The notes beneath the pieces are model-generated. The model made no database searches, was not told the DNA's origin, and saw only the letters and a list, made by a program, of their open reading frames with translations. From Streptomyces lydicus (GTDB lineage: Bacteria > Actinomycetota > Actinomycetes > Streptomycetales > Streptomycetaceae): 64,000 nt of DNA. The stretch covers positions 4,774,001-4,838,000 of the forward strand of contig NZ_CP017157.1 of NCBI RefSeq assembly GCF_001729485.1. The letters are read 5' to 3'. A program made the translations under genes and the position numbers. Shown one piece after another: positions 52,380 to 62,280 of this stretch; position 1 is the stretch's first letter, and each line of letters opens with the position of its first letter.

Positions 52380-53606
52380 TCAGCCGACGGGGACGGGTGC
52401 TTCCGGCACCGGAAGCACCCGGGTGCGCACGGCCCACCGGGTGAGCGGCCGGGTGGCGAGGCCGCAGAGCGCGAGGACGACGCCCAGTACCACCCAGCCG
52501 GGCTTGCCCCATTCGAGGCAGAGCGCGGTGAGCACGACCGGTGACGCCGCACGGACCACGCCATCGGCCAGGTTGAAGGCTCCCTGGTACTGCCCTTGGG
52601 CGTGTTCCGGTGCCAGCGCGAAGCTGACTTCGAACGCCCCGGCGGCCAGACCGAGTTCACCGGATGACAGCAGGAGCACGCCGACGAGCAGCAGGGCCGC
52701 GGCGACGGGGGCGGATACCCCTGCGGCGAGGGCGAGCACGGTACAGCCGGCGAGGGACAGGAATCCTGCTCCGCGGAGCGCGGTGGAAGCGGGCAACGGG
52801 CCTCTCACCCACCGGGTCGCCCTGACCTGGAACAGCACGACCACCGCCATGTTCGTCACCAGCAGCAGGGAAAGCCACCACCGGGGCGCCGCGGTGTGCG
52901 ACACCAGCCAGAGCGGCAGGACCAGGGACACCACGTCGTACTGGAACGCGATGACCCCGCACAGCAGCGACAGGGCGAGGTACGGGCGGTCCCGCACGGC
53001 CTCCATGCGCCGCGCGCCCGGCGGGCGTGGCACCGGCCGCACGGACGGGATCTTGAGCAGCAGTCCCGCCGCGGCCAGAAAGCTCAGTCCGTTCGCCAGG
53101 ATCAGCAGGGTGTAGCCCGCCGTCGAGTCGAGTTGGAGCGCGACGCCGGCCGCCGCCGCGCCGATGCCCATTCCCAGGTTGGTGACCGCGCGCAGATGGC
53201 TGCGGATGCGGGTGCGTTCTCCGGGCTCGCTGATCCGTGCGACAAGGGCGCCGCCGACCGCCTGGGCGCCGCGCTGGCCGATGGCCGCGACGGTGACCAG
53301 CGCGAGAAAGGCGGCGAAGGAGTGTGCCATCGGGAACAGGAACATCGCCGTCGCCTGGACACCTTGGGTGGCGACGTACAGTCCACGGGGCCCGACGCGA
53401 TCGGCCACCGCACCGAGGGGCAGGCCGGACAGGATCCCGACGGCCGTCGCGACGGCGAGGCCGGTACTCACGCCCGGCACGCCCAGTCCGACGACGCGGG
53501 TGAAGAAGAGCATGCTGCCGGCAAGGTAGAGCCCGCTGCCGACGGTGGTGACGAAACTGGCGATCGTCAGGAACCGAACCGGGCCACGAAACATCTCGGT
53601 CGTCAT
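52380..53606 (-). CDS. MFS transporter, putative exporter of a modified peptide
   Basis: 408 aa, about twelve helices. Helix 1 FLTIASFVTTVGSGLYLAGS; the inter-helix-2/3 signature GILSGLPLGAVADRVGPRGL fits MFS. ATG 53606 overlaps the stop of a 14-codon mini-gene that has its own strong ribosome binding site, so translation is probably by re-initiation. Last gene of the leftward cluster 56283-52380 that contains a small peptide gene, a JmjC oxygenase and a glycosyltransferase; context suggests export or self-protection. The exact start rests on the coupling argument. Confidence 0.8.
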   Translation of the reverse strand: MTTEMFRGPVRFLTIASFVTTVGSGLYLAGSMLFFTRVVGLGVPGVSTGLAVATAVGILSGLPLGAVADRVGPRGLYVATQGVQATAMFLFPMAHSFAAFLALVTVAAIGQRGAQAVGGALVARISEPGERTRIRSHLRAVTNLGMGIGAAAAGVALQLDSTAGYTLLILANGLSFLAAAGLLLKIPSVRPVPRPPGARRMEAVRDRPYLALSLLCGVIAFQYDVVSLVLPLWLVSHTAAPRWWLSLLLVTNMAVVVLFQVRATRWVRGPLPASTALRGAGFLSLAGCTVLALAAGVSAPVAAALLLVGVLLLSSGELGLAAGAFEVSFALAPEHAQGQYQGAFNLADGVVRAASPVVLTALCLEWGKPGWVVLGVVLALCGLATRPLTRWAVRTRVLPVPEAPVPVG

Positions 53607-53647
53607 ATGCACTGCTGTGGGGTGCGGTTGGTGACCTGGTGGAACAT
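53603..53647 (-). CDS. 14-codon mini-gene translationally coupled to the MFS gene
   Basis: ATG 53647 follows AGAAGGAAAGCGAC, the best ribosome binding site in this intergenic stretch. It encodes MFHQVTNRTPQQCI, and its TGA overlaps the MFS ATG (ATGA). The MFS start itself has no good ribosome binding site, so this frame likely delivers ribosomes to it. It could be a small leader, or simply the device for coupling. Confidence 0.5.
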   Translation of the reverse strand: MFHQVTNRTPQQCI

Positions 53648-53753
53648 GTCGCTTTCCTTCTGATCGGGTGCGGATATCCGCCTTCCGGGACGGCGGTGCC
53701 ACGACGCAGGGCGGGCGAGCGAGCGGAGGAGTGGGTATTTCCTTCACGAGCCG

Positions 53754-54824
53754 CTATCGGCGGGTCAGTTGGTCGCGCAGGGCTGACAGGCACTCGGCCC
53801 GGTATGCCTCCAGTCCCGGCACCGCCGCCCGTTTCCTGCGGTTGAACTCGCCGGTTTTCACCCAGGTGACGATCAGGTCCGCCAGGGACGGAATGCCGCC
53901 GTACCGCGCCGTCATCCCCTCGGTGTGCTCACTCAACGGATAGAAGGCGGGCATGAGCGAGGGAAGTCCGAACCGGACCATGTCGTTGATGTTGCCCGTG
54001 ACGCAGGTCTGGCCGCGTGTTTCGATGATGCCGTTACGCGTGAGGTATTCGGAGACCGGAAGGATGAGGAAGTCGGCCTCCGCCAGGGTCCGGTCGAACT
54101 CCTCCTGAGCGACGTAACCCGGGTGATCCCGCAGTTCGACCGAGGGAGCGACCGCCTTCCGCGCCGCCGCAACGGCCGTCTCGGTCTCCTCGGTGGAGTG
54201 TTCTCCCAGGAATTCGACGCGCAGTCGCTTCGTCAGCCGTGGGGCGGCGATTTCCAGTGCGGACAGCACCTCGGCGTGGTCCCGGCCGGAATACATCCGC
54301 CCCGGGATGCAGCACCGCACCTCGTCCCGTACGAATTCCGAGGGCGGATGTTGCGGGTAGGCGATGTTGACCGCGCGGTTCCGCAGCGGGTCACCCGTTC
54401 TCCTGAGCCGGAGATCCGGGAGGAGGACATCCGCCGCGCCTTCGAGAACGAGCTTCGCGACGGCGGCGCTCGGCCGGTTGCCGTCCGACGAAACGAACGT
54501 GTTGAGGTTGTGCACCAGGCAGTGCCGGGCAGGTGTCCTGGCGCTCGCACCGGAGAGCATGCCGCACAGGGAATCGACCGGGGTGACGATGAACAGGTGG
54601 TCCTGTGAACCGAGCGAGGGCCCGCACTCCGCCAGGAATTCCGCGTACGGCAGACCCGGGGGACACACCTTCCACTCGACGGCCGCGGATGCGGCGGCCG
54701 TCGAGGATTCGGCGCAGAACGGGTTGGTGTAGACCGTAGGGCTCGCCCCGACATCGATGGCTTGCCGCAGAAGGCTGTCGAGGACCTCGCTGTGTGCGCT
54801 GAGCTCGATCAGGCCGATCTTCAT
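53754..54824 (-). CDS. GT-B-fold glycosyltransferase-like protein of the peptide cluster
   Basis: 356 aa, soluble. The C-terminal half looks like a family-4-type nucleotide-sugar domain: IPGRMYSGRDHAEVLSALEI, RVEFLGEHSTEE, the segment YVAQEEFDRTLAEADFLILP and TGNINDMVRFGLPSLMPAFY near the donor site. The N-terminal half (KIGLIELSAHSEVLDSLLRQ, HCLVHNLNTFVSSDG) would be the acceptor Rossmann domain. GGAGACG precedes ATG 54824. It lies 48 bp after the JmjC gene, so it may glycosylate a hydroxyl that the oxygenase installs. Assignment to a glycosyltransferase family is moderate; a search is needed. Confidence 0.6.
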   Translation of the reverse strand: MKIGLIELSAHSEVLDSLLRQAIDVGASPTVYTNPFCAESSTAAASAAVEWKVCPPGLPYAEFLAECGPSLGSQDHLFIVTPVDSLCGMLSGASARTPARHCLVHNLNTFVSSDGNRPSAAVAKLVLEGAADVLLPDLRLRRTGDPLRNRAVNIAYPQHPPSEFVRDEVRCCIPGRMYSGRDHAEVLSALEIAAPRLTKRLRVEFLGEHSTEETETAVAAARKAVAPSVELRDHPGYVAQEEFDRTLAEADFLILPVSEYLTRNGIIETRGQTCVTGNINDMVRFGLPSLMPAFYPLSEHTEGMTARYGGIPSLADLIVTWVKTGEFNRRKRAAVPGLEAYRAECLSALRDQLTRR

Positions 54825-54872
54825 CGAGTCGTCTCCGTCAGTGGTGCGGCGGGCCGGTTTTTCTGGCGGCCC

Positions 54873-56060
54873 TCACGCCGACGGAGCCTTTTCTTCCAGC
54901 AGGATTCCCTCTTCGACCAGCAGCCGCAGCAGGGGGGCGATGTCTTCGGCCGGGTCGAATGCGGGGGCCCAGCCGGTGGCTTCCGCGAGGGTGAACGACG
55001 TACTGCGGAAAAGATTGTCGATGAGTTGCACGGGAGCGCCGTCGAGCGTGATCTTCCTCGCGCCGAACTGGATACGGTGCTGCGCGGTCTCGGCGTCGTA
55101 ATCAACCGTGACGGGGTTGAACTGTGCGCGCCGCAGACGTGTGTCGCCGTTCGTGGAGAGCGGATGGAACCCGGACTGGCTCGGCAGGCTGACCTCGCGG
55201 TGGCGGCTGTCCTGGGTGGTCAGATGATGGGCGAGGTACGCCGCCACCAACCGCTCGTCGCCGGCCAGCGCGGCGAGCCTGCCCATCAGACCGCGGACAT
55301 GGTCGGCGAGCCGGTCCGTATCGCCTTCGACGACGGGTGGGAGGTTGCGCCGCCACTCCTCCTCGTCCATCAGCTCGTCCGCGAGCCACTTCAGCCAGTA
55401 GACGCCGGTGCGGCACGTCACTCCCAGCGTCAGGTGCAACGAGGGTTCGTCACCGGCCACCGCGTAGTGCCAGTGGCCCCGTGGAATGTAGAGCACGTCC
55501 CCCGGATGAAGTTCGGTCTCGATGTACGGGGGCCCCTTGGGTTCGCCGGTGTCGTCGGAGACGTTGTTGTATTTGTCCAGCGGGTACTTGTACGTCTCCT
55601 CGGAGACGACCCATCGCTTCGTCCCCTCGATCTGCAGGATGAAGACCTCGTGGTCGTCGTGGTGTTGGTCGAACCCCTGCTGTTCGGGCCAGGAGCAGTA
55701 CATGTTGACCTGGCTCCGGTGGCCGATCGCACGCTCGATCGCCGACGCGAGTTCCGCGATCGCGGGCAGCCGTGCCTGCAACTGGTTGATGATGAGGGTG
55801 TAGCCGTCCTGACAGTGCCTGATCCACTCCTCGGGCGTCTCGGGCTTGTCGGCGACCTTTCTGCCTATTGCCGCCAGACGGATTTCCTCGCCGAAACGGA
55901 GGCGATGGAAATTAAGCAGGTGGTTGAGCTGATCCCATGAGAAGAGCGGACGGAAACGGTCCCGGTCCTGCCCCCGTAAGACGACGCCTCGGGTGGTCCA
56001 GTTCTCGCGAAGGAATTGATCGAGAGGCATCGGGTCAAGTAAGGATTCGAGAGCGAGCAC
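54873..56060 (-). CDS. JmjC-domain 2-oxoglutarate/Fe(II) oxygenase
   Basis: 395 aa. Cupin_4/JmjC protein related to ribosomal oxygenases (YcfD/NO66 type). The core strand reads QGFDQHHDDHEVFILQIEG with the Fe ligands His133 and Asp135 (HxD), then TKRWVVSEETYKYPLD; the third ligand is His198 in LYIPRGHWHYAV. The C-terminal about 130 residues form the usual dimerisation and winged-helix region (LVAAYLAHHLTTQDSRH, IAPLLRLLVEEGILL). These enzymes hydroxylate side chains of peptides and proteins. GTG 56060 has AGGAA upstream and is preferred to GTG 56072. Preceded by a 46-codon gene, so a ribosomal peptide is the likely substrate. Confidence 0.85.
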   Translation of the reverse strand: MLALESLLDPMPLDQFLRENWTTRGVVLRGQDRDRFRPLFSWDQLNHLLNFHRLRFGEEIRLAAIGRKVADKPETPEEWIRHCQDGYTLIINQLQARLPAIAELASAIERAIGHRSQVNMYCSWPEQQGFDQHHDDHEVFILQIEGTKRWVVSEETYKYPLDKYNNVSDDTGEPKGPPYIETELHPGDVLYIPRGHWHYAVAGDEPSLHLTLGVTCRTGVYWLKWLADELMDEEEWRRNLPPVVEGDTDRLADHVRGLMGRLAALAGDERLVAAYLAHHLTTQDSRHREVSLPSQSGFHPLSTNGDTRLRRAQFNPVTVDYDAETAQHRIQFGARKITLDGAPVQLIDNLFRSTSFTLAEATGWAPAFDPAEDIAPLLRLLVEEGILLEEKAPSA

Positions 56061-56086
56061 GCCATTCCTCACGGTTCAAGGGGAGT

Positions 56087-56113
56087 GCCCGGTGACTCCA
56101 GGAGCCACCGGGC
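56087..56113 (-). terminator. Stem-loop between precursor gene and JmjC gene
   Basis: GCCCGGTG (56087-56094) and CACCGGGC (56106-56113) form an 8-bp stem with an 11-nt loop. It lies 30 bp after the small gene's stop and 26 bp before the JmjC GTG. Partial terminators in this position keep precursor-peptide mRNA in excess over enzyme mRNA in many ribosomal-peptide clusters. Confidence 0.55.
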
Positions 56114-56142
56114 TGGTCAGGACAGCGACTTGGCGCCTGCCC

Positions 56143-56283
56143 TTACACGTCCTTCTGGTCGACTTCGAGGTTCGGCACGCTCTTGACCTGGGCCGTCTTC
56201 ACCGTCTCCACGGAGAATCCGATCCGCTTCGGCCGACGGGCCGCGTGGGTCTCGCTCTTGGGTGCTACGGAAACCTTGGTCAT
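56143..56283 (-). CDS. Putative ribosomal precursor peptide
   Basis: 46 aa. GAGGAGTTACCG directly before ATG 56283 is a strong ribosome binding site; an in-frame extension to 56340 lacks one. It starts MTKVSVAPKSETHAAR, has a basic centre RPKRIGFS, a VETVKTAQVKSV repeat-like section and ends PNLEVDQKDV. It has no Cys or Trp and no signal peptide, which argues against lanthipeptide, sactipeptide and thiopeptide chemistry. Targets for JmjC hydroxylation present in the second half are Asn38, Asp42, Asp45, Lys29/34/44 and several Val. Leader/core boundary unknown. Confidence 0.65.
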   Translation of the reverse strand: MTKVSVAPKSETHAARRPKRIGFSVETVKTAQVKSVPNLEVDQKDV

Positions 56284-56417
56284 CGGTAACTCCTCGACTA
56301 GGGAACCTGCCCTGCCATTCCTACTACCAACTCCCCACAACCGCGGGAAAACGTGCGAAATGTCACGAGCGACGCATTAAGCCAAAGTTGCCGCAGTACT
56401 TGCCAAATAGGGACGAC

Positions 56418-56467: not shown

Positions 56468-56776
56468 CTACTCCACCGCGTACAGCAGCCTGTACTCGGC
56501 ACCATCCGCCCTGAAGCGCAGACTGCGCTCACCAGGAGTATCCGTGATCCACTGCTCCCCGAGCCGGCCGTCCCCGCCCGGGGCGCCGACCTCCCCGAGA
56601 GAGACCGCGATCGCCCCCGTGAAGTCGCAGTCGTACTTGACGGTGAACATCCGGTCCCCCAGCACCGTTCCGTTCCACACGGTGCCGCGGTCCTGGACGA
56701 CCAGCCTCGGCTCATCGAAGCCGCTCCAGCCCTCAGTCGTGACGCACTTGAGCTTCTCCAGATACAGCTTGGCCAT
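56468..56776 (-). CDS. Hypothetical beta-sandwich-like protein
   Basis: 102 aa. AGGGGACGG precedes ATG 56776. The sequence starts KLYLEKLKCVTTEGWSGFDE, then RLVVQDRGTVWNGTVLGDR and continues with alternating hydrophobic strands (MFTVKYDCDFTGAIAVSL, WITDTPGERSLRFRADG). The pattern resembles small C2-like or lectin-like beta-sandwich domains attached to secreted or toxin proteins, but it stands alone here. It lies between the gas vesicle operon and the peptide cluster. I cannot assign a family or function. Confidence 0.65.
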   Translation of the reverse strand: MAKLYLEKLKCVTTEGWSGFDEPRLVVQDRGTVWNGTVLGDRMFTVKYDCDFTGAIAVSLGEVGAPGGDGRLGEQWITDTPGERSLRFRADGAEYRLLYAVE

Positions 56777-56930: not shown

Positions 56931-57329
56931 TCATCCCCCGTCGTTGCGGGGCAGCAGCGACCCCAGGGGACCGAGGTCCAGATTCAGGTCGTCCAGGGTC
57001 AGTCCGTAGCGGTCGCAGAGTTCGGACATCCGGTCCTGGAGGATCATCAGGGTCATGCCGATCCGCTCCTCCTGCGCCTCACTCAGGTCGCCCTGATCGA
57101 CGCGGTGCAGTGCGGTGCGCTCCATGAGCTGCCGCAGGAGCTCGACGATGGTCAGCACCAATTTGATGAGGTCGCGTTCGACGGTCTCCGGATCGGTCTT
57201 CAGGCGCTGGGCGAGCTCACTTCCGGACCGCTGCTCCTCGGGTCCGGCCGGCACGAGCCCGAATGCCCGCGCCGCCGCCTGCGCGGCCTCCCCGAAGGCG
57301 TGGTCCGGCGCTGCCTGGTGGTCCTGCAT
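56931..57329 (-). CDS. gvpK: Gas vesicle protein GvpK
   Basis: 132 aa from ATG 57329 (GAGGAG upstream). The GvpK core ELAQRLKTDPETVERDLIKL, VLTIVELLRQLMERTALHRV and QEERIGMTLMILQDRMSEL with a C-terminal GLTLDDLNLDLGPLGSLL are all present. A minor gas vesicle component needed for assembly. Last gene of the operon. Confidence 0.93.
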   Translation of the reverse strand: MQDHQAAPDHAFGEAAQAAARAFGLVPAGPEEQRSGSELAQRLKTDPETVERDLIKLVLTIVELLRQLMERTALHRVDQGDLSEAQEERIGMTLMILQDRMSELCDRYGLTLDDLNLDLGPLGSLLPRNDGG

Positions 57330-57389
57330 GAGGTCGCTCCTCAACGTCGCGGCGCATTACGGTCGTCGGCGGCGGCGTACGGCCGCTCC

Positions 57390-57611
57390 TCACCACGGTG
57401 CGGGGTCGTCGGGGGTGATCGAGTGGATCACGGCCCGCAGATTGATCCGCACCAGGTCCACGTCGGCCACCGACAGCACGAGGTCGCCGGTGAGCACGGC
57501 CCCGCCGTTCAGCAGGCGGTCGAGGAGGTCGATCAGCGCGACCTGCCGGCCGGCCAGCGACTCCTCCTCGGTGAGAGCGGCCGGCTCGACGTCACCACGG
57601 TCCTCCCTCAT
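57390..57611 (-). CDS. gvpS: Gas vesicle protein GvpS (GvpA-related)
   Basis: 73 aa. LIDLLDRLLNGGAVLTGDLV and VADVDLVRINLRAVIHSI match the GvpA-family fold (helix, strand, helix) in its short GvpS/GvpM form. Start overlaps the gvpL stop (ATGA). Confidence 0.88.
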   Translation of the reverse strand: MREDRGDVEPAALTEEESLAGRQVALIDLLDRLLNGGAVLTGDLVLSVADVDLVRINLRAVIHSITPDDPAPW

Positions 57612-58480
57612 GCCCGACCGCCCGCCGTGGGCACCGTGGCGAACGAGTACGGGGCCCACGGGCCGGTGATCTCGACCCGTACGCCGGGGAGCCCGTCGGC
57701 CAGCCCCGCCAGCGCCCGGTGGAAGTCCTCCACGCGGTCGACGGCTACCAGATATGCCTCGTTGGCGATGTTCTCGCCGGCGGCCGACGCCAGCTCGCCC
57801 TGCTGCGGCCGGTGCGCCACCCTGGCCCGGACGAGCCCGGCCACCCGGTCCGGTACGGCGCCGGCGACGCCCCCGGCGGCACGGTACGCGTCGCGGTGGT
57901 GGCGCCGCTCCTGCCGCCGCTGCCGCAGATACGCCCGGCCGGGGCTGAGCGCTGCCGGTGCGGGGCCCTCGGCGGTGGGCGGCTCGGCGACCGGCGGCGG
58001 GGCGGCGGCCGCTTCCCGCGGATCCGCGTACACCTTCACCCCCAGCTCCACATGCCCCTCCAGCCACCCGAGGGCCTCGGTGAAGTCCGTGTCGCGCTCT
58101 TCGAGCATCGCACGGACCCGGGCGTCGTCCAGGTACACCGTGGCCAGCCGCATGGGCAGCACCGTGGTGCCGGCGTACGCGGCTTCGACCACCGCGTGGT
58201 GCGTACGGGCCAGGGCCGCCAGCTCGGTCAGGTCCTCCAGCCGCGCCCTGATGCCCGCTTCCCCGTACGCACCGGCCGGCACGGACGAGACCAGCGCCGC
58301 CAGGCCCTCGGAGGTCACGGTGCGAAGCGGTCCGTCCTCCAGCCCGGCGAGCCGGTCCGCCGCCGTGTCGAGCGCGGTGCCCGCACGGCCGACGGCGTAC
58401 ACGTAGGACATCGTGGCGGCGGGGTCCGTCCGGTGGTCCGGCGCGGAGGCCGCTGCCGGTGCCTCTGCCCCGGTGTTCAC
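57608..58480 (-). CDS. gvpL: Gas vesicle protein GvpL (GvpL/GvpF family)
   Basis: 290 aa. Begins the conserved domain at SYVYAVGRAGTALDTAADRL, continues LARTHHAVVEAAYAGTTVLP, MRLATVYLDDARVRAMLEER and ends ITGPWAPYSF, the family's last motif. It carries an extra Ala/Pro and then Arg/His-rich insertion at about 155-200 (RQRRQERRHHRD). GTG start overlaps the gvpJ stop (GTGA). Assists vesicle assembly, probably as an adaptor to GvpA. Confidence 0.9.
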   Translation of the reverse strand: MNTGAEAPAAASAPDHRTDPAATMSYVYAVGRAGTALDTAADRLAGLEDGPLRTVTSEGLAALVSSVPAGAYGEAGIRARLEDLTELAALARTHHAVVEAAYAGTTVLPMRLATVYLDDARVRAMLEERDTDFTEALGWLEGHVELGVKVYADPREAAAAPPPVAEPPTAEGPAPAALSPGRAYLRQRRQERRHHRDAYRAAGGVAGAVPDRVAGLVRARVAHRPQQGELASAAGENIANEAYLVAVDRVEDFHRALAGLADGLPGVRVEITGPWAPYSFATVPTAGGRA

Positions 58481-58911
58481 CGCTCCTCCTCACGAGCCGC
58501 CGTCGACGCGTCCTCGTCGGCCCGCGCGGAGCCCTTGGGGAGGCCGACGGCGGCCCGCAGTTCGGCGAGTTCCGCGCGCAACTGCGCGTTCTCGGCGGCC
58601 AGTTGGTCACCGGCCGTCGCGGGCGCGGCGGAGACCTGCCCGGGCGGGCGGGCGCGGGAGGAGAGCGACGGGTCGTGCTCCCACCAGTCGATGCCCATCT
58701 CCTTGGCCTTGTCGACGGACGCGACGAGCAGCCGGAGCTTGATCGTGAGCAGCTCGATGTCGAGCAGGTTGATCTGGATGTCGCCCGCGATGACGACGCC
58801 CTTGTCGAGGACGCGTTCCAGGATGTCGGCCAGGTTGGCGGAGGAGCCCTGCCCGCCGTACGGGGATGCGGAGGCGGCGGGCCCCATCCGGCCGGCCAGT
58901 GAATCGGACAC
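58477..58911 (-). CDS. gvpJ: Gas vesicle protein GvpJ (GvpA-like)
   Basis: 144 aa. The GvpA-like core LADILERVLDKGVVIAGDIQ, INLLDIELLTIKLRLLVASV, DKAKEMGIDWW is complete; an Ala/Glu-rich coiled-coil-like extension follows (AAENAQLRAELAELRAAVG). GvpJ is a minor component thought to act in nucleation or at the cone tips. Confidence 0.9.
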   Translation of the reverse strand: MSDSLAGRMGPAASASPYGGQGSSANLADILERVLDKGVVIAGDIQINLLDIELLTIKLRLLVASVDKAKEMGIDWWEHDPSLSSRARPPGQVSAAPATAGDQLAAENAQLRAELAELRAAVGLPKGSARADEDASTAAREEER

Positions 58912-58943
58912 AGGATCAGCCTTGTCTGTACGGGCGGAAAGGG

Positions 58944-60110
58944 TCAGCGACGGGCAACGGCCGGACGACGCCGCGGGCGACGGCCGCTACCGGCGTCCTC
59001 GTCGTCTTCCTCGTGGTCGTCCTCGTAGTCGTCCTCGACGCGGTCGTCGCGATCGTCACGGTCGTCACGCTCGTCGTCGAATTCGTCCGCCTCGTCCGCG
59101 GGTTCGGCGTCGGCGTCACCGCTCTCGTCCTCGCCCTCGGCCTCAGCCTCGTCGTACGCGTCGTCGTCCTCGTAGGCGGCCTCGTCCTCGTAGCCGTCCT
59201 CGGGAGGCTCGCCCTCGGCGTCGTCCGCGGGCTCCCGCTCCTCGTCATCCGTCTCGTCCGCGGACTCCCGCTCGTCCTCGACGGCGTCCGCGTGCTCGAC
59301 GACGACCTTGCCGTCCTGGATCTCACCGCGCCACCCGTCGGTGGCCTCGCCGCGCATCATGATGAACTTGCGGTACAGCTTGAGGTCGAGACGGGCGCGG
59401 CGGCCCTGGGCGCGCCAGATGTTGCCGGTCTTCTCGAAGAGGCCCTTGGGGAAGTACTCGAGCACCAGCAGCACCCGCGTCAGGTTGTCGGTGAGGCGGT
59501 GGAAGGTCACCACCCCCTTGACCGTGCCCTTCGCGCCCTCGGTGGTCCAGGTGATGCGCTCGTCGGGCACCTGCTCGGTGACGTTCGCCCGCCAACTGCG
59601 GGTGGACTTGGCGACCTTCACCTTCCAGTTGCTGGTGGTGTCGTCGGCCTTCTCGACGCTGACGACACCCTTGGCGAAGGTGCTGAACTCCTGGAACTGG
59701 GTCCACTGGTCGTACGCCTCGCGCACGGGCACGCCCACATCGATGTCCTCGACGATCGTCACGCTCTTGGACTTGCCGCCACCGCTCTTGCGGCCCTTGC
59801 CGAACAGGCCCTTGACCTTGTCCTTGACGGCCTCCTTGACGTGCGAGGTGCCGGCGGTCAGCGCGGCCTGGGCCGGTGAGCTGCCCTCGGCGAGGGCCTT
59901 GCCGCCCTTCGCCAGGCTGCCGGCCAGTCCGCTCCCGCCCTGGCCGGGCTGACCCAGCTTGGTGACGCTCTGGCCCAGCTTCTGCCCGAGGTGGGTGACG
60001 GCGTGCTGCGCACGGGCCTGGAGGTACCGCTGGAATTCCTCCTTGAGGTCTTCGGCGGCGGGGCTCTTCGTCACCTCGTCCTTCACCTTGCTGAAAGTGG
60101 ACTCACTCAT
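58944..60110 (-). CDS. gvpZ: Gas vesicle-associated SRPBCC protein GvpZ with acidic tail
   Basis: 388 aa. N-terminal about 110 residues are helical and Gly/Lys-rich (EDLKEEFQRYLQARAQHAVT, KDKVKGLFGKGRKSGGG). A START/SRPBCC-type domain (about 115-265) follows: VTIVEDIDVGVPVREAYDQW, WRANVTEQVPDERITWTTEG, LTRVLLVLEYFPKG. The last about 115 residues are mostly Asp/Glu (DDRDDRDDRVEDDYEDDHEE), closing with a short Arg cap. It matches the gvpZ position in the S. coelicolor-type gvp operon. The start overlaps gvpY by 8 bp. Function in vesicle formation unproven. Confidence 0.85.
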   Translation of the reverse strand: MSESTFSKVKDEVTKSPAAEDLKEEFQRYLQARAQHAVTHLGQKLGQSVTKLGQPGQGGSGLAGSLAKGGKALAEGSSPAQAALTAGTSHVKEAVKDKVKGLFGKGRKSGGGKSKSVTIVEDIDVGVPVREAYDQWTQFQEFSTFAKGVVSVEKADDTTSNWKVKVAKSTRSWRANVTEQVPDERITWTTEGAKGTVKGVVTFHRLTDNLTRVLLVLEYFPKGLFEKTGNIWRAQGRRARLDLKLYRKFIMMRGEATDGWRGEIQDGKVVVEHADAVEDERESADETDDEEREPADDAEGEPPEDGYEDEAAYEDDDAYDEAEAEGEDESGDADAEPADEADEFDDERDDRDDRDDRVEDDYEDDHEEDDEDAGSGRRPRRRPAVARR

Positions 60111-60732
60111 CGCTGCCTCCACGGTGGGAGGTCTTGCGCGCGGCGGGCTTCCTGCGCGCCGCCCCGGACGCGGTCTTCCGGGCGGCGCCCGACGCGGTCT
60201 TACGGGCCCCTGAGGCGGTCTTGCGCGCCCCGGAGGACGCCTTGCCCGGGGCGGACTTGGCGGACCTGGACGAGGCGGATGCCTTGGCGGACGTCGCTGC
60301 CTTGGCGGACCTGGCCGGCCTCTTGCTGCCGCGCGACGCCGACTCGGCGTCCTCGGGCCGGTCCGCGTCGTCCGCCTTCTCTTGCGCGTCCGGCTCGTCC
60401 GACGCGTCCGGTCCTTCCGCCTCCGCGTCGCCCCCCGCGTCCCGGAGGTCCAGGGTCCGCTCGTGCAGGGAATCGGCGAGCCCGGACATCCGCTGGGTGA
60501 GCGCGGCGGTGGCCGCGGACTTCGTGGCGTCCACCAGCTCCCTGCGCACCTGGTCGTTGAGCGGGCCGAGGACCGGGGAGTTGGCGACCAGCTTCCCCAG
60601 CTGCTTCGGGTCCAGGTTCAGTTTCTTGCCGGCGAGGTACATGCCCAGGCCGATGGCCAACTTGGCCTTCTTCGTGCGTCCCAGCACGTAGCCCCCTGCG
60701 AGGGCCACGCCTATCTTGGCGTTGTTCATCAT
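60103..60732 (-). CDS. gvpY: Gas vesicle-associated protein GvpY with histone-like basic tail
   Basis: 209 aa. NAKIGVALAGGYVLGRTKKA and LAIGLGMYLAGKKLNLDPKQ form two hydrophobic, possibly membrane- or vesicle-associated segments; a helical part follows, then an acidic patch (DASDEPDAQEKADDADRPED). The C-terminus is Lys/Ala/Ser/Arg repeats (SGARKTASGARKTASG, AARKTASGAARRKPAARK), like histone H1 tails. Position fits gvpY. Two adjacent ATG codons mark the start; the first is given. Confidence 0.82.
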   Translation of the reverse strand: MMNNAKIGVALAGGYVLGRTKKAKLAIGLGMYLAGKKLNLDPKQLGKLVANSPVLGPLNDQVRRELVDATKSAATAALTQRMSGLADSLHERTLDLRDAGGDAEAEGPDASDEPDAQEKADDADRPEDAESASRGSKRPARSAKAATSAKASASSRSAKSAPGKASSGARKTASGARKTASGAARKTASGAARRKPAARKTSHRGGSDE

Positions 60733-60760
60733 CTTGCGTACACCTCGTTCTCCACGATGC

Positions 60761-61018
60761 TCAGGAGTCGGTACGGAGCCGCTGCTGGTGGGCCTCCAGC
60801 CATTCGAGGCGGTCCAGCAGTTCGTCCTCACGCCGGTCGAATTCCTCGTCCGTGATGCGCCCTGCCACCAAGTCCCGTTCCAGTTGCGCCAGTTCCGCGC
60901 GTACCGGCTCCGGGTCGTAGTACTCGCGCTCCGCGGTGAGCAGCACCTGGTCGAGCACCCAGACCGTGCCCCGCACGGGGGCCAACGGAAAGGTCAGCAG
61001 GTCGGTGATGAGGCCCAT
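60761..61018 (-). CDS. gvpG: Gas vesicle protein GvpG
   Basis: 85 aa. GLITDLLTFPLAPVRGTVWV, LDQVLLTAEREYYDPEPVRA and ITDEEFDRREDELLDRLEWL are the GvpG motifs. Accessory protein in vesicle assembly. Confidence 0.92.
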   Translation of the reverse strand: MGLITDLLTFPLAPVRGTVWVLDQVLLTAEREYYDPEPVRAELAQLERDLVAGRITDEEFDRREDELLDRLEWLEAHQQRLRTDS

Positions 61019-61053
61019 GGGGCAGTCCTCCGCTCGGCGCGGGTCGGGCGGAT

Positions 61054-61767
61054 TCAGACGAAGCTGTACGGCGGCAGCGGGCCGTGCAGGCTGAACGTGT
61101 AGGCGTCCCCGCGCCGCTCCGCCTCCTCGTGGACGGCCTGGGAGAGGGCCGCGGCCCGCTCCCGGGTGACGAGGAAGGACACGTTCAGGAAGTGGGTCTT
61201 GGTCGGCTCGGCGACCGCGGTGCGCTCCGCCTCCGGCGCGAGCCGGGCGACCAGCTCGGAACCCGTGCTCTCCTGGCGGGCCTGGACCTCGCGTGCGACC
61301 AGCTCGCCGAGCGCCATGCGGTCCTGATGCGCTCCGGGGTTCTGCCGGGTGCCCTCGTTGAGCCGCCGTATCTCCGCGGAGTCGGTCATGATCTCCCGCA
61401 GCAGGTCGTCCTCGTCGCGGGCGACCTTGAGGTTGTACTCCAGGCGGCCCCCGATCTCCTTGAGGCGCTCGGTGTAGGCGTCGCGCTGCTCCTCCATCAC
61501 CGCCGCCACCTGGTCGTCGTCCCGGCCGACGAGTCCGAAGCGCATCGGCAGTACGGCGCCGTCGGCCATCAGCCGGTCCTGAACCCCCTGGTGGGCGACC
61601 AGATCCCGGCGCTTGGCCCGCAGGTCGGTCGGTGCGTCGCTGACCACCGCGCTCAGGTCCTTGGTCCGGACGGTGCGCAGTTCGGCTGCCGGGTCTCCGA
61701 TGCCGTGGACGCCTTCGAGGTTCAGCGGGTGGCCGGCCTCGGTGATGGCGTAGACGTAGGTCCCCAT
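61054..61767 (-). CDS. gvpF: Gas vesicle protein GvpF (GvpL/GvpF family)
   Basis: 237 aa. Starts GTYVYAITEAGHPLNLEGVH, includes GAVLPMRFGLVGRDDDQVAA and YNLKVARDEDDLLREIM, and ends with NVSFLVTRERAAALSQAVHE and LHGPLPPYSFV. GvpF binds GvpA and is required for vesicle formation. It begins 3 bp after the gvpA stop. Confidence 0.93.
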   Translation of the reverse strand: MGTYVYAITEAGHPLNLEGVHGIGDPAAELRTVRTKDLSAVVSDAPTDLRAKRRDLVAHQGVQDRLMADGAVLPMRFGLVGRDDDQVAAVMEEQRDAYTERLKEIGGRLEYNLKVARDEDDLLREIMTDSAEIRRLNEGTRQNPGAHQDRMALGELVAREVQARQESTGSELVARLAPEAERTAVAEPTKTHFLNVSFLVTRERAAALSQAVHEEAERRGDAYTFSLHGPLPPYSFV

Positions 61768-61770
61768 GTG

Positions 61771-62214
61771 TCACTCCTCCCGGCGCCGGGCGGTCCGGCG
61801 GCTGCTGCTGGACGAGGAGGACTTGCGCGCCGGTCGCTCTTCCTCCTGCTCGGATTCGTCGCGCCCCTTCTGGAAGGACTCGCTGAACGCCTCGACCGCG
61901 CCGGTCAGTGCGCCTTTCGACTTTCCTTTGGCGCCGCTCTCGGTCGCCTCGCCGACCAGATCGGTGAGCTGGCTCGGTGCCTTTCGGCCCGATTCCAGAT
62001 CGAGCCGGTTGCACGCCTCGGCGAAACGCAGATAGGTGTCCACGCTCGCGACGACGACACGTACATCGATCTTGAGGATTTCGATACCGACGAGGGAGAC
62101 CCGGACGAAGGCGTCGATGACGAGCCCCCTGTCGAGTATCAGCTCAAGGACGTCGTAGAGATTTCCCGATCCACTTCCGCTGGTGGGTGCATTTGATTGC
62201 TGAACGACACTCAT
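61771..62214 (-). CDS. gvpA: Major gas vesicle structural protein GvpA
   Basis: 147 aa from ATG 62214 (AGGAAGGGAAG upstream). The wall-forming core, about residues 18-80, is [56 protein letters not shown]. Canonical GvpA is about 70-80 aa; the extra about 65 residues are Lys/Glu-rich and end in a Ser run then basic residues ([17 protein letters not shown]), a feature of Streptomyces versions. Second gene of the operon. Confidence 0.93.
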
Positions 62215-62280
62215 GTTCTTCCCTTCCTGTCGGCTGGGCGAGCTCATGATCGGTACGGCGGATGACGGGCGTTCGCCGGC

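Follow-up and report, generated by a model that had tools for sequence, protein, structure and literature searches.

A peptide–JmjC oxygenase cassette in Streptomyces lydicus as a likely member of a little-explored group of modified natural peptides

Organization of the cassette

The window analyzed here is a 64,000-nucleotide stretch of Streptomyces lydicus DNA (contig NZ_CP017157.1, positions 4,774,001 to 4,838,000), in which four minus-strand genes lie in a row at window positions 52380 to 56283 and encode, from 5' to 3', a 46-residue peptide, a JmjC oxygenase, a glycosyltransferase (GT)-like protein, and a transporter of the major facilitator superfamily (MFS), separated by gaps of 70, 48, and 147 bases. 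A sequence-only reading of this DNA had proposed a compact pathway for a ribosomally synthesized and post-translationally modified peptide (RiPP), and the four genes are present where it had placed them. The putative precursor (56143..56283, minus strand, as are all cassette features), conserved in Streptomyces and Paraburkholderia as well as in two additional sources, has the sequence MTKVSVAPKSETHAARRPKRIGFSVETVKTAQVKSVPNLEVDQKDV. As first described, it contains no Cys and has a strong ribosome binding site; its ATG follows the Shine-Dalgarno sequence GAGGAG (56290..56295) by six bases, and GAGGAG or AAGGAG also lies 5' of the peptide in the four other Streptomyces loci considered below. The C-terminal block of the peptide, PNLEVDQKDV (56146..56175), is the putative core.

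The second gene (54873..56072, GTG start) encodes a NO66-like Fe(II)/2-oxoglutarate oxygenase of 399 residues, the single match to itself in the source genome at E ≤ 0.001. With a match to PF08007 (JmjC_2) well above the cut-off (E 3.6e-27, 94.8 bits, cut-off 22) and the HxD...H iron ligands intact, as had been read from the sequence alone, the protein is a PF08007 JmjC oxygenase. The ligands H137, D139, and H202, together with K152 and N123, are unchanged in six of six close-family rows, window included. Its best solved relatives are NO66 and MINA53 (E 1.2e-27 to 4ccn). The C-terminal winged-helix domain (residues 309-396; 54885..55148) was modelled with the βββ(β)-ααα order of RiPP recognition elements (RREs), and the model matches MINA53/NO66 and also ThcOx, PbtF, TbiB1, MccB, and PqqD; the resemblance to RREs is at the level of the fold only, and this fold is common to NO66/MINA53. 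RRE-like βββ-ααα domains are common, but not universal, in RiPP pathways, and on the basis of the model the domain may act as a peptide-binding RRE.

The third gene (53754..54824) encodes an orphan protein of 356 residues, possibly a GT-B-type glycosyltransferase, for which VIA was mixed. The window protein has no Pfam or NCBIfam match and hits nothing among PDB sequences better than E 1.1; Pfam matches among 22 members of its family are at chance level, and a second PDB comparison gave nothing better than E 0.46. Protein searches identified 27 full-length relatives and one partial relative among the best 7998 candidates scored, and three UniRef entries name such relatives glycosyl transferase. 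A Foldseek search with the poor, low-confidence model returned 17 matches at E ≤ 0.001, comprising 12 glycosyltransferases, four UDP-GlcNAc 2-epimerases (which belong to the same fold class), and one transcarbamylase; no TM-score exceeded 0.23. Comparison with the GT4 proteins of its own genome gave a probability of 8.3% and an E value of 0.0041 (hhalign). The gene that the sequence-only reading called GT-B-like is there, and its assignment as a glycosyltransferase is weakly supported. The last gene (52380..53606) encodes a putative exporter of 408 residues, counted from an inner ATG at 53606 in an open frame that extends to 53747. Its identification as an MFS transporter holds, the match to MFS_1 lying above the cut-off (E 6.6e-21, 75 bits, cut-off 33.4).

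Co-conservation and spread of the cassette

A scan of genome contigs with the window JmjC returned five loci besides the window, four from Streptomyces (87-91% identity) and one from the betaproteobacterium Paraburkholderia ribeironis (69%). In all five, the peptide gene lies directly 5' and the GT-like gene directly 3' of the JmjC gene; the MFS gene accompanies these three in the window and at every other Streptomyces locus. Loss of the peptide among close JmjC relatives, which the sequence-only reading had named as one outcome that would speak against it, was not seen, as five of five keep the peptide in front. A short precursor gene co-inherited beside a modifying enzyme, as expected of a RiPP pathway, is found at every close locus.

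The peptide itself has only a chance match below the cut-off in Pfam. A protein search recovered 15 relatives (80-96% identity), for five of which the rows give no source. Three more peptides came from a profile search, P0017 from P. ribeironis and P0018 and P0019 from sources lgn and jgi. The N terminus is variable, and the segment PNLEVDQKD is identical in all 19 peptide rows, window included. Most of these rows were found by searches that demand shared five-residue words and so favor rows keeping this block; it is also kept in all five loci retrieved via JmjC alone. Residues N38, D42, and D45 are invariant in the family. When the five Streptomyces genes (window and L031-L034) are compared over codons 18-46, their 10 pairs, which are not independent of each other, together show 26 synonymous versus 4 non-synonymous differences. 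Judged from these comparisons, the 46-codon open reading frame (ORF) is a real, conserved gene.

Occurrence of the cassette appears sporadic: the GT-like gene is found in two of 392 genomes sampled from Streptomyces, one of them the source genome, and in one of 299 genomes of the Paraburkholderia family, P. ribeironis itself. Within flanks of ∼8-10 kb (own gene calling), no gene outside the cassette recurs at all five Streptomyces loci, window included. Sporadic occurrence, taken together with conservation across phyla, suggests that the cassette has been horizontally transferred.

Several neighboring features were also recorded. Gas vesicle genes adjoin the cassette at window positions 56931-62250 (GvpK by Pfam, others by eye), and L033 is the only other Streptomyces locus with relatives of several genes of this gas-vesicle-type cluster near its cassette. 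A 102-residue protein without Pfam or NCBIfam match is encoded 5' of the peptide gene (window 56468-56776, minus strand); no counterpart was found around the cassette elsewhere. In Paraburkholderia, a methyltransferase gene in convergent orientation (PF08241; L035:3666-4568, minus strand) comes after the cassette, and transposase-like ORFs were seen by eye on both sides of this 7.1-kb contig.

Upstream peptides at other actinobacterial JmjC genes

More distant relatives are common in actinobacteria, with a JmjC match at E ≤ 1e-10 in 44 of 100 genomes searched, source genome included. Apart from the window, the matches fall at 67 places with 27-41% identity to the window JmjC, and a survey of 60 regions covering 63 of them yielded 65 JmjC frames. 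An upstream small ORF with a ribosome site was counted if homologues (E < 1e-3) were present at no fewer than three loci with JmjC proteins <65% identical. Such a peptide was found at 29 of the 65 frames, as compared with none of 65 on the opposite strand, downstream, or 2 kb further upstream. When only one linked locus was required, the count rose to 38 versus 13, 7, and 7 in the three controls, and single-locus links are consequently noisy.

The 29 frames comprise 12 of family A, 12 of family C, and four of family B, with L119 besides; two of them, L080 (one of the four B frames) and L119, owe their inclusion to apparently spurious Arg- or Ser-rich ORFs, leaving 27. Family A peptides carry a GL(L/V)...I..AR.R-type leader followed by SD...G(K/R)(S/T)DxND, and those of family C an LLxAVExL-type leader followed by SD and a D-rich tail. 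Family B (eight by script and three by eye, L076, L077, and L078) consists mostly of DGGA-type repeats. In addition, a tandem pair of peptides of a different type lies at L092, an Asp-rich peptide with a link to a single B peptide at L109, and a lone upstream peptide without homologues at L074. Examples are found at L068:5301-5432, L089:4633-4800, and L078:4295-4744, with tails rich in Asp, Asn, Ser, and Gly. The A and C precursors are mutually related (hhalign 88.6%), and no relation of the window peptide to either was detectable by hhalign. In a midpoint-rooted tree of the JmjC proteins the window family forms one group (100/100), itself within a group (100/98) that includes A, C, and three other frames. 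Two of these three, L088 and L100, have no upstream peptide and none was recognized at ∼27 of the 65 frames; the link to an upstream peptide is thus common, not universal. No precursor families of this kind were met in the literature found, the coverage of which was largely non-subscription.

One neighbor gene family, some of whose gene calls are rough, is found at 11 of 12 loci of family A and 11 of 12 of family C (22 of 24 in all) and may encode a second modifying enzyme (for example L064:7293-8144, plus strand, and L089:6868-7722, minus strand). One A neighbor has a weak match to the APH phosphotransferases (E 0.002, 18.3 bits, cut-off 23.2), and one C representative has no APH match. This neighbor suggests a shared logic of hydroxylation followed by capping. 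At four family A loci the gene 3' of JmjC belongs to one family, which in the member scanned is an aldo/keto reductase (PF00248; L081:4067-4951, minus strand). Elsewhere, at L104:4067-4741, a JmjC gene lies directly 3' of a gene whose product, by eye, we take to resemble TfuA, a RiPP-like context.

A probable RiPP-type pathway and its alternatives

Because of the co-conservation, the invariance of PNLEVDQKD, the iron ligands, the RRE-like domain, and the upstream peptides found elsewhere, the cassette is very probably a RiPP-type pathway within a broader JmjC-peptide group. The pairing of precursor and JmjC in particular, as put forward from the sequence alone, is strongly supported by conservation across phyla, the RRE-like domain, and the analogous peptide-JmjC pairs. 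In the pathway we favor, which as a whole we consider likely, the 46-residue product would be the precursor, with the variable N terminus and the conserved segment PKRIGFSVETVK as leader and the PNLEVDQKD block as core. The leader would dock on the RRE-like winged helix at the JmjC C terminus, and the oxygenase would hydroxylate one or more core side chains, most probably at the β-carbon of Asp or Asn. The GT-like protein would act next, perhaps adding a sugar to the new hydroxyl, before a general protease trims the product and, in Streptomyces, the MFS protein exports it. The order of the genes, their co-conservation across phyla, the conserved peptide block, the conserved metal ligands, and the modelled C-terminal fold are observed, and it is to these that the pathway adds peptide binding, hydroxylation and its site, glycosylation, trimming, and export as predicted steps. 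As Asp carries the only functional side chain of the DGGA repeat unit, the tails of the precursor families are Asp/Asn-rich, and N38, D42, and D45 are invariant, β-hydroxylation of Asp or Asn is our best guess from the sequences. The GT, trimming, and export steps are plausible.

Two observations weigh against parts of this pathway. The MFS gene is not universal in the cassette, the P. ribeironis genome having no match to the window MFS at E ≤ 1e-20, and the glycosyltransferase step is the weakest link, given a protein without family or PDB sequence match and with a poor model. Glycosylation by this protein is accordingly possible rather than probable. No leader-removing protease is encoded by the four cassette genes, and trimming, perhaps by a generic protease elsewhere, is for this reason inferred. 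An overlapping explanation keeps the RiPP pathway and makes the GT-like protein something other than a glycosyltransferase, such as an epimerase-like or partner protein, the product being either a peptide that is hydroxylated and not glycosylated or a small cofactor excised from PNLEVDQKD, as with pyrroloquinoline quinone (PQQ) or mycofactocin. The chance-level Pfam matches, the PDB and GT4 comparisons, and the low-confidence model all fit this explanation, as does the invariant block, which would suit a fixed small product. The precursors of PQQ and mycofactocin are likewise short with an invariant C-terminal block, and these systems use an RRE; the window cassette resembles them in these respects and differs in having an oxygenase and no radical SAM enzyme. 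Glycosyltransferases nevertheless dominate the Foldseek list, though at low TM-scores and alongside epimerases, and UniRef labels point the same way. We hold this explanation to be a serious, if lesser, contender.

Two further explanations dispense with a natural product. The JmjC could be a ribosomal oxygenase of the NO66/MINA53/YcfD type acting on a ribosomal protein, with the small gene encoding a regulatory or unrelated peptide. It shares with these PF08007 enzymes the JmjC core, the HxD...H ligands, and a winged helix at the C terminus, and two of them are its best solved relatives, but it differs in its dedicated peptide gene in front, its sporadic distribution, and its GT-like partner. 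Such rarity is unlike that of a housekeeping enzyme, and the genes for the peptide, the JmjC, and the GT-like protein remain linked in different phyla; this genome context argues against a ribosomal function, which we regard as very unlikely. Alternatively, peptide and JmjC could form a self-contained regulatory or stress unit, the peptide sensing oxygen or iron. The invariant core, the missing protease, and the P. ribeironis genome would agree with this, whereas the transporter gene in all five Streptomyces loci and a layout typical of RiPP operons would not, making such a unit improbable.

Among known systems, a close precedent is biphenomycin, in which the JmjC oxygenase BipG γ-hydroxylates an ornithine of the ribosomal precursor (PMC12707348), and a JmjC role has been proposed for BpmG (PMC12257519). 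The sequence-only reading knew of no described RiPP class with JmjC plus glycosyltransferase; the involvement of JmjC enzymes in RiPPs is in itself no novelty. The likeness lies in a JmjC oxygenase hydroxylating a residue of a ribosomal precursor, a reaction that is predicted here. In biphenomycin, as far as the accessible text goes, JmjC is one tailoring enzyme beside an MNIO, a B12-radical SAM enzyme, an arginase, and a TldD-type protease, whereas in the window cassette it is the only recognized modifying enzyme and its GT-like and MFS partners differ. A biphenomycin-type cluster was considered and rejected, as the MNIO, radical SAM, and TldD partners are absent among the four cassette genes and no further gene is common to the Streptomyces loci. 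RRE-Finder work has reported RRE-like folds fused to PF08007, with bacterial homologues (∼30% identity) in RiPP-like contexts; the accessible part of that report describes no precursor family, cassette, or chemistry, in contrast to the specific precursor families found here (PMC12710340). β-Hydroxyaspartate is a known RiPP modification, from PesHI (PMC13060819) and SmaO (as cited in PMC13097080), in clusters of other types for which the accessible text does not name JmjC. JmjC in a RiPP context was met only in PMC12707348, PMC12257519, and PMC12710340, among mostly non-subscription literature available in part, which is no proof that the group is unpublished.

A wider proposal, which we put forward tentatively and judge to be nearly evenly balanced, is that JmjC oxygenases with an RRE underlie a broad and mostly undescribed actinobacterial RiPP group, whose precursors fall into several families (SD...DxND tails, DGGA repeats, and LLxAVEELxxxHDR leaders). 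JmjC would hydroxylate Asp/Asn-rich cores and a second enzyme would cap the hydroxyl (GT-like in the window cassette, kinase-like or APH-like elsewhere), the window cassette being a horizontally moved member with an invariant product common to Streptomyces and Paraburkholderia.

Collectively, the cassette probably belongs to a little-explored group of modified natural peptides, with looser relatives common in actinobacteria. If this is correct, an enzyme family whose known role is mainly the hydroxylation of ribosomal proteins would also found a group of peptide natural products, dozens of defined enzyme-substrate pairs would become available for studying JmjC site selection, and the likeness of the human NO66/MINA53 winged helix to RiPP recognition elements would become directly testable.
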